Source: Methanoregulaceae archaeon (lineage in GTDB: Archaea > Halobacteriota > Methanomicrobia > Methanomicrobiales > Methanospirillaceae). Taken from it: a stretch of 36,364 bases of DNA. Numbering within the stretch: position 1 is the stretch's first letter; the number at the start of each line of letters is the position of its first letter. Position numbers and translations under genes: made by a program. The DNA is taken from the NCBI GenBank assembly GCA_021371995.1, contig JAJFVA010000034.1, forward strand, positions 1 through 36,364, in the 5' to 3' direction. Positions 14,447 to 32,566 of this stretch are shown piece by piece. The notes under the pieces are model-generated. The model was not told the DNA's origin. It searched no databases and worked only from the letters and a program-made list of their open reading frames with translations.

Positions 14447-14889
14447 TGTCTGTCTTGGTGATGAGGGGATATTATAATTTTCACCATCACTCTTACCATC
14501 AATGTACGATTGAAACCTGTGTCGTGCTTATAGTCCCAGAATCCAGGGCTGAAAAGTGATACTGCTATTTTCTTCAAAGTGAAGAAAAGATCCTGAGACC
14601 TGAACTGTTCAATTGCGTTATGGAAAGACGCTAACAGCGGCGTTGGGGGTGAGCCAAAGGCGAAAGCCCCTTGAGCTCCAGAATCATACAGAGCCTTGTA
14701 TCAATAAAAAAAATGGTCCTTGAACTACCACGTACCCTTCATGGCTACATCCGTTCCTGGTTTTCCCTGTCATCCCCGTTTCGAATGAGCTCATGGGTTT
14801 GTTGATATAACCTTTTGGTAAGTGCGAATAATTTCGCAGTTAAACGGGTTAAATCGGGAAAAGGGCCTATTTAAATGCTTTGTCCTTGC
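14447..14889. other. AT-rich noncoding region with hairpins
   Basis: No gene is supportable. The region holds a perfect 8-bp hairpin, TTTTCTTC-AAAGT-GAAGAAAA, at 14568-14588; a family 2 repeat at 14615-14670; and a perfect palindrome, TGCGAA-TAAT-TTCGCA, at 14823-14838. A TATA-like TATTTAAAT lies near 14868-14877. A small noncoding RNA is possible but I cannot define one. Confidence 0.45.
14615..14670 (+). repeat. Dispersed hairpin repeat, family 2, copy 1
   Basis: The core CAGCGGCG at 14635 is followed by GGGGGTGAGCCAAAGGCGAA (14644-14663), which is identical to copy 3 at 32478-32497. A GGGG/CCCC outer stem and GCC-AAA-GGC inner stem can form. The upstream part GCGTTATGGAAAGACGCTAA aligns loosely with the other copies. 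Confidence 0.6.
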
Positions 14890-14959: not shown

Positions 14960-15208
14960 ATGCCATCGGGAACAATCCGAGACAAATACAATGAAACCCA
15001 GCACAGGATCGTCCACTACCTGCTGGGGGGTCTCTCGAAAGGGAAACACTACTTCAAGTCCAAGTACATCGCAAAGGAGCTCGGTCTCTCTGCAAAGGAG
15101 GTAGGCACCAACATGGCCATCCTCTCCGAGATATGCCAGGAGCTTGCGATCATCAAGTGGAGCTATTCAAACAGCACGACCTGGATGGTAACATCCAAAG
15201 GGGTCTAG
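14960..15208 (+). CDS. Small winged-helix-like protein, DUF7123-like
   Basis: Predicted 82-residue protein. KGKHYFKSKYIAKELGLSAK followed by EVGTNMAIL (about 27-55) reads as a helix-turn-helix, and IKWSYSNSTTWMV near 65-77 as a wing. The pattern resembles small haloarchaeal DUF7123 proteins, in which a similar HTH is followed by an I-x-x-W...TTW segment; this match is from memory. It is likely a DNA-binding regulator. GAGGTGA lies eight bases before the ATG, a good ribosome binding site. The promoter carries an inverted repeat around its TATA box, which suggests self-regulation. The next small gene starts 20 bases downstream. Confidence 0.75.
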   Translation: MPSGTIRDKYNETQHRIVHYLLGGLSKGKHYFKSKYIAKELGLSAKEVGTNMAILSEICQELAIIKWSYSNSTTWMVTSKGV

Positions 15209-15417: not shown

Positions 15418-15843
15418 CCATTTTTCAGGGATCGTTGTACGCGGAAGATCCCAAAAACAATTTTCAAGGAACCCTGTATCCTGATTCTGGTTCCGGAATC
15501 GATAAAAAAGGACCAGACTTTCGGGTCACGAAAATGAATCCGTCCCTGATCCGACCCTGTCGCATCATGGGGATGCTACAGCGGCGGGGTAATCGGAAGG
15601 TGAAACCCCGAAAAGAGCTTTATATCCGGGACAGGGATCGTATCTTCAGGGAAAATCAGCGGTTGATATGCCTTGATACGAATCTCATTATCGATCCATC
15701 ATTCCACCAAAGTGCGACCCTTTCCTGATGCGATCTCCAGGCAACCTGCCCCGCATTTCTGCAGAGTGCTGGCACAAAAAGCTCTCGTTCTCCGGAGCAT
15801 AAAGAGAAATTACATAAGTGATCCTTACAAATACCATAAGAGC
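15418..15843. other. Noncoding gap before tRNA-Pro
   Basis: No gene is supportable. The gap holds a family 2 repeat copy at 15560-15610 and an AT-rich segment at 15800-15835 that should contain the tRNA promoter. A 97-codon open frame across the repeat (15435-15728) has no family features. Confidence 0.45.
15560..15610 (+). repeat. Dispersed hairpin repeat, family 2, copy 2
   Basis: TCGCATCATGGGGATGCTA followed by CAGCGGCGGGGTAATCGGAA and GGTGAAACCCCG. The outer stem GGGGT/ACCCC is kept; the inner stem changes from GCC/GGC in copies 1 and 3 to ATC/GGT here, which still pairs. This supports selection or shared history as a folded RNA or DNA element. Confidence 0.6.
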
Positions 15844-15917
15844 GGGGCCATAGGGTAGCCTGGCCATCCTAGGAGACTGGGGGTCTTCTGACCTGCGTTC
15901 AAATCGCAGTGGCCCCA
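15844..15917 (+). tRNA. tRNA-Pro (anticodon GGG)
   Basis: A full cloverleaf can be drawn in 74 bases. The acceptor stem is GGGGCCA/TGGCCCC with discriminator A at 15917. The anticodon stem GGAGA/TCTTC (one G-U pair) frames the loop CTGGGGG, giving anticodon GGG at 15879-15881 after U33. The T arm is CTGCG-TTCAAAT-CGCAG, the archaeal form. The D arm is GGGT...TCCT with G10-U25. The 3' CCA is not encoded, since TTC follows. No intron is present. It reads CCC and, if modified or by wobble, CCU proline codons. The DUF89 gene starts 34 bases downstream. Confidence 0.93.
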
Positions 15918-32083: not shown

Positions 32084-32217
32084 GGAATAGATCTCATCTG
32101 TCTTCGGAGAGGTATCACCAGCAGAACCCTTGGGGGAGGAAGGGGCGTTATGCTGACTATCAACACCAAGGGAGGGGCGTATTGGAATCAGAAGCTCTCT
32201 TTTTGTCACTATCTTGC

Positions 32218-32295
32218 GGGGGCTTTCGCCCCCACACCCCCACAGATGTACCCCGCCGCCCCCTGAGGGCTTCCTGCCGGCGGGATCATGGCCGT
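32218..32295 (-). repeat. Dispersed hairpin repeat, family 1, copy 3 (inverted)
   Basis: On the minus strand it begins ACGGCCATGATCCCGCCGG, runs through GGGTACATCTGTGGGGGTGT and ends with a perfect hairpin at 32233-32218 (GGGGGC-GAAA-GCCCCC, a GNRA tetraloop). It shares GTGGGGGTGTGGGGGCGA with copy 1. Confidence 0.65.
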
Positions 32296-32451
32296 CTTCT
32301 GGAATTGATGATTCCGACGTTAAGTGCCGGAATTGTGGAGCTGTTCGCCTCGATTATTACCATAAGGATTGATACCACCCGCATTAGAACAATATGATAC
32401 TACTTTCCAAAAGAGCAAGAGATAAAAAAACTGGTACAATATACCGTCCTA

Positions 32452-32504
32452 TCGCATATGGGGGAAGCCTCAGCGGCGGGGGTGAGCCAAAGGCGAAACC
32501 CCCG
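32452..32504 (+). repeat. Dispersed hairpin repeat, family 2, copy 3
   Basis: TCGCATATGGGGGAAGCCT, then CAGCGGCGGGGGTGAGCC (32471-32488), AAA, GGCGAAACCCCCG. The outer stem GGGGGT/ACCCCC and inner stem GCC/GGC with loop AAA are both perfect, joined by an asymmetric GA/GAA internal loop. Confidence 0.65.
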
Positions 32505-32566
32505 GGAACGTCGGATCAATTACTTTGATAAAAGGCAGTTAAAAATGCCTCTAGGTAAAAGCAGAC

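Follow-up and report, generated by a model that had tools for sequence, protein, structure and literature searches.

A conserved folded core within MITEs of Methanomicrobiales that were probably mobilised by IS1595-family transposases

In the window, that is, the whole stretch of 36,364 nucleotides from a Methanoregulaceae archaeon analysed here, an earlier note had described three short, dispersed copies of a repeat with two stems (14615-14670, 15560-15610 and 32452-32504, all on the plus strand) and had read the changes between them as a sign of a structure that is kept; the locus thus raises the question of what these repeats are and why a fold should be conserved in them. All three copies were recovered at these positions and on this strand, GGGGGTGAGCCAAAGGCGAAA being common to copies 1 and 3; in copy 2 GGGG/CCCC replaces GGGGG/CCCCC, an outer stem shorter on both sides, and the TCGCAT...GGGG part common to copies 2 and 3 is recognisable in copy 1 as TTGCGTTATGG. 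The replacement of the inner GCC/GGC by ATC/GGT in copy 2 is present as well, although, with a loop of GGAA in place of AAA, it pairs only once the register is shifted by one base. The three copies taken alone are weak evidence for a fold, as they offer one register-dependent change; the first hairpin proposed for them (GCAT...ATGC) is kept in some copies only. The small gene noticed between copies 1 and 2 is an 82-aa DUF7123 gene (14960-15208).

A gapped pattern of the repeat has exactly 3 matches in the genome, all on this contig, and none when reversed as a control. A covariance model for which just copies 2 and 3 were used (R1) recovers copy 1 with 31 bits (E 3.9e-6 in the window, 2e-4 in the genome), the next-best match in the window having E 0.33. 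The genome-wide covariance-model search that had been proposed yielded about 15 copies in the 1.85-Mb genome of the window, and about 165 copies were collected, so that the repeat is anything but confined to this locus. The dispersed family is thereby upheld; its bounds had been drawn too narrowly, the core extending from about TATCGC to ...GARCGTC within an element of ~270 bp. What the earlier note saw is the middle of a larger mobile element, whose mobility and true length it missed.

Copy 1 (14465..14737, +, ~273 bp) preserves almost the full length of a class I MITE, with a 5' terminal inverted repeat GGGGATATTATAATTTTCACCATCA (14465..14489, +) and a degraded 3' terminal inverted repeat TGGTCCTTGAACTACCACGTACCC (14714..14737, +); its 5' end is identical to the family terminal repeat at 20/25 positions and its 3' end is homologous, and no clear target duplication is left in its flanks. 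Its structured core occupies 14611..14671 (+; the R1 match given above), with a variable hairpin at 14645-14670. In copies 2 and 3 the sequence around the core has decayed. With a wider covariance model (R2, 57 copies), the core of copy 2 (15550..15622, +; variable hairpin 15586-15609) scores 41.9 bits (E 1.8e-10) and that of copy 3 (32442..32513, +; variable hairpin 32478-32503) 74.8 bits (E 8.6e-20). Of the terminal repeats of copy 2, the alignment shows a remnant of the 3' one, CAGCGGTTGATATGCCTTGATACGA, at 15657..15681 (+), and the 5' one is not recognisable; in copy 3 neither terminal repeat is recognisable and the core alone is kept. Elsewhere in the window, a GC-rich inverted-repeat pair (71%) lies at 32207-32283 and 2710-2786, one arm just upstream of copy 3, and is possibly another repeat family; at 15844-15917 ARAGORN calls a tRNA-Pro(GGG), and the Rfam gathering search gave nothing there.

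When copies of the window's genus are aligned with their flanks, the similarity stops sharply ~145 nt before and ~65 nt after the core, and the boundaries of class I similarity lie at GGGTATAGTACTATTTTCACCACCA and TGGTGGTTGAAATGCCACTATACCC, which are 25-bp terminal inverted repeats. The class I element is ~269 bp long (262-272 bp), with ends GGGTATAGT…ACTATACCC and the core of ~75 nt inside, and is too short for a transposase gene. Its target duplications are A/T-rich and measure 7-8 bp (examples are TTTTCAGA, TTTTCCTT, TTTATTT and TAATTTTT); flanks matching in at least 6/7 positions occur in 16 of 28 end pairs, which include a few elements counted on both strands, vs 2.2 expected (partner-shuffling permutation, p<5e-5). 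Two precise empty sites were found in sister species of G004, a genome with recent insertions: G008 (L222) lacks the G004 element of L190 and keeps one AAGATAAAG, and G011 (L243) lacks the G004 element of L184 and keeps one AAAATAAC. Within class I, conservation amounts to 0.76 in the core, 0.77 and 0.74 in the terminal repeats, and 0.52 and 0.44 in the spacers.

The window's own genome also holds a second MITE family of ~296-318 bp (L273, L275-L280), with GGGTATAGT...ACTATACCC ends, a different GC-rich interior and no core; since the same ends enclose another interior, it is the ends, and not the core, that define the transposition unit. At another locus (L110 2713-4597, G004:C117) an IS110-family transposase gene (PF02371/PF01548) interrupts the core of a class I element at AGGAG^CGTTAAG; at this insertion point the own-genome copy L056 has AGGAGCAGCGTT, possibly an excision scar. 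The right flank of the L184 element carries a ~72-nt dispersed repeat around GATGAAAATGCCGGGGGCATTTTCAT that is very abundant in G004, G008 and G011.

A candidate for the enzyme that moves these elements is offered by IS1595-family insertion sequences with MITE-type ends, present in genomes of the window's genus and family (L292, L294, L297). The one in L292 is an 856-bp element encoding a 262-aa IS1595 transposase (NF033547, E 2e-42), whose end upstream of the transposase gene resembles the MITE 5' end, the other end resembling the MITE 3' end; in G004 an end GGGTATAGCTGTATTTTAACCACCAA is followed by a transposase that is truncated where the contig stops (L297). Further IS1595 elements of these genomes are flanked by 8/8-bp duplications. 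The ends predicted to be moved by an IS1595-type transposase are of the GGGTATAG type. The window's own genome, a 43-contig assembly, has no match to the IS1595 transposase domain (PF12762), so that the driver has been lost there, has diverged or is unassembled. An IS6-type transposase (PF13610), considered as driver of the GGCTTTG frame, was found in none of 6 genomes. Terminal repeats, target duplications, empty sites and a matching insertion sequence establish the mobility of the family.

The fold is best judged from the 57 diverse copies. The earlier proposal of a fold kept by paired changes holds, in that pairs covary in these copies, yet the strongest of them lie outside the two stems originally drawn, in the pseudoknot (28-72, 35-77 and 36-75 of alignment A6). 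An unguided scan of ~1,650 column pairs ranks CAGYGG-Y with GARCG-R first (CG 90, TA 15) and GAY-Y with the R preceding GA third; the CA[G/A]-[C/T]GT pairing, with A-U variants, is found in every copy. Twelve named pairs are formed in 95.6% of cells vs 40-54% when slid, and double-changed cells number 30 vs 3.6±4.6 in shuffles (0/500 shuffles), covariation counts that the relatedness of the copies inflates. The conserved single-strand fold predicted from these alignments would consist of a GCC/GGC hairpin and of a pseudoknot formed by its loop (AC-A-GY) with an RCGT strand lying downstream; beside this pseudoknot there would be a Y-R pair with tandem G.A, and, between its strands, a GC-rich and very variable hairpin. 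The GARCGT that makes up the 3' strand of the pseudoknot is degraded in copies 1 and 2, which read GAGCTC/GAGCTT there. The intervening hairpin ranges from ~13 to >30 nt and is much longer in L131 and L089, where (1870-2000 and 2420-2550, respectively) it bears extra hairpins of ~60 nt, the flanking pseudoknot strands (CAGTGG...ACGTTATG) being kept despite them. G.U exceeds A.C (39 vs 10, p 4e-5), which shows that the listed strand is the folded one. A first reading of the fold, with GAYG pairing with CGTC, was dropped, the covariation scan supporting GY/RC; hammerhead-, HDV- and kink-turn-like readings, compared by eye, miss the defining elements. On A6, RNAalifold predicts a short hairpin around the GCC/GGC pairs only, because it cannot show a pseudoknot.

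Exact-pattern searches in relatives gave mostly coding matches, and covariance models were used instead. R1 detects the core in 33 of 61 relatives; GTDB genomes, scanned with a pattern, yielded 106 stretches, and the 80 listed loci belong to Methanoregula, Methanolinea, Methanoregulaceae, or Methanomicrobiales/Euryarchaeota bins. Across the phylum, R2 matches occur in 16 of 295 genomes, all of the window's order (Methanomicrobiales), the rest of this sample outside the order having none; within the order they occur in 34 of 159 genomes (25 of the window's family, 7 of a second family and one each of two others), with up to 31 in a single genome, and the presence of the core is patchy even inside one genus. 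Its surroundings vary too. Other Methanoregula genomes carry the core between GGCTTTGTAGAAATC-type ends with 8-9-bp duplications (GTAATTTT in L091, AAAAAAAT in L129, GTTGCAAT in L139, CTTAAAATC in L134), while in Methanolinea-type genomes it stands in tandem arrays with periods of ~175-215 bp and no comparable terminal repeats. The number of cores per locus varies: at a single intergenic locus, three sister species have one, two and three cores in tandem (L060, L029 and L069). In the arrays, an upstream RYGATA...TATCGC stem at a constant distance of 58-61 nt (CGCGATAG/CTATCGCG, GGCGAT/ATCGCC) is convincing; as a general feature it was rejected, being unconvincing in class I elements. In G024 (L070, L071) two core subtypes alternate in opposite orientation, ~65 nt apart, as REP-like pairs. 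Because it occurs also in a second terminal-repeat frame and in tandem arrays, the core appears to be an exchangeable module.

The genomic context was compiled for 134 non-redundant intergenic copies with both neighbours known, with genes called by a simple codon-usage caller that may be wrong in single cases: the neighbours are convergent in 63, codirectional in 53 and divergent in 18, the figures for all long intergenic regions of the same order being 114, 206 and 110. Orientation in codirectional settings is random (26 same, 27 opposite), and the neighbour proteins are diverse. This context fits insertion into A/T-rich gene ends and speaks against a leader element.

The explanation that best accounts for the repeats, and which we hold to be very probable, is a MITE mobilised by IS1595 and carrying a conserved folded passenger core. 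An element of ~269 bp, lacking a transposase of its own, would be moved in trans by an IS1595-family (DDE) transposase recognising both ends, each insertion duplicating 7-8 bp of A/T-rich target, and the core of ~75 nt would take the position of the transposase gene. Since an ordinary MITE can do without a conserved core, to call the element only a MITE leaves the core unexplained. The core would benefit the element that carries it, most likely by folding as a single strand during opening of the DNA and being bound in this form by a protein of the element or of the host. A different account, which we regard as rather doubtful, makes the core an independent folded module that two or more unrelated transposon frames have taken up and that has multiplied into tandem arrays within one archaeal order; the activity of its own that this would entail (a new ribozyme, a protein-binding RNA, or a folded single-stranded DNA site of recombination or replication) is put forward with the same reserve. 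That the repeats are a riboswitch or another 5' leader is extremely improbable: they are structured and intergenic, as a leader would be, but they share no neighbouring gene (of 168 clusters of neighbours, 141 are singletons) and no fixed position upstream of a common gene class, and their commonest setting is between convergent genes. Scarcely more credit can be given to REP/BIME-like extragenic palindromes moved by a Y1 (RAYT) transposase, to which the extragenic location, the avoidance of divergent gene pairs (18 vs 63 convergent) and the convergent subtype pairs of G024 would be congenial; the match of the ends to IS1595 largely refutes this reading, long, duplication-flanked terminal repeats being foreign to RAYT elements and the own genome being without PF01797.

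More weight attaches to the question of the form in which the core acts, two answers being entertained tentatively and alike. The core may be a functional noncoding RNA that every copy gives rise to, for instance a ribozyme or an RNA that binds a protein, with transposition doing no more than spreading it; the G.U excess on one strand, the covariation, the compact pseudoknot with tandem G.A and the conservation across genera and frames agree with this, but the random orientation (26/27) does not favour read-through transcription, no promoter-like upstream sequence is shared across classes, there is no Rfam match, and the loops are of the DNA mini-hairpin kind, with GNRA and UUCG almost missing. 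It may equally be a folded single-stranded DNA signal, exposed in transposition, in replication or in a rolling-circle-like amplification that would also make the arrays; the orientation data allow it to act on either gene strand. The core hairpins are capped mostly by C-GAA-G and related loops, with GNRA in one and UUCG in 0: GNA/GNNA loops, a type that forms exceptionally stable DNA hairpins (PMC4686876), close 33 of 57 distinct C-G-closed core hairpins and 0 on the other strand, vs 23 of 130 background intergenic hairpins on either strand (p 9e-8), although the core loops share ancestry and are not independent events. The loop type leans towards single-stranded DNA over RNA, a leaning that the shared ancestry weakens; against the DNA answer, the own genome has no single-strand transposase (PF01797), and DDE transposition needs no folded single strands.

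MITEs are normally conserved at their ends only; an interior pseudoknot motif as conserved as the ends, crossing genera and found in two frames and in arrays, is unusual for a MITE. It offers a clear case in which to ask whether folded strands with a function travel in small transposons, and whether they act as RNA or as single-stranded DNA, and gives methanogen genomes a mobile family that is easily annotated with covariance models. Archaeal IS1595-derived MITEs are already known; the conserved folded core, the second frame and the arrays appear to be new, the literature search having found no paper on the present element or on any of these three features, and Rfam no match to the core at or near the gathering score (weak matches in an array spacer, C4 and drz-agam-1 with E>0.5, are due to chance). 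The BOX elements of Streptococcus pneumoniae are likewise MITE-like and contain a folded module that may occur in tandem repeats, but host and sequence are unrelated, and the present module is a pseudoknot in two terminal-repeat frames. REP/BIME sequences, linked to Y1 transposases, are extragenic and occur as paired inverted copies, as the core does in one genome (G024), whereas the present element has terminal repeats with target duplications and its own genome has no Y1 transposase. The STAXI motif (RF01728; PMC2864571) is enterobacterial, lies near DNA-handling genes and has UUCG loops; it shares with the present core the character of an intergenic tandem pseudoknot for which RNA and single-stranded DNA are undecided, and differs from it in that the latter belongs to methanogens and is without an Rfam match. 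Closest to the present element is the MITE of Haloquadratum walsbyi tied to ISHwa6 (IS1595), which is 165 bp long and present in 7 copies, its repeats measuring 25 bp and its duplications 8 bp (PMC3852290, Table 4): both are short and non-autonomous, with 25-bp inverted repeats, duplications of ~8 bp and IS1595-matching ends, but the text of PMC3852290 makes no mention of a conserved folded core, whereas the core described here equals the ends in conservation and is found again in another frame.
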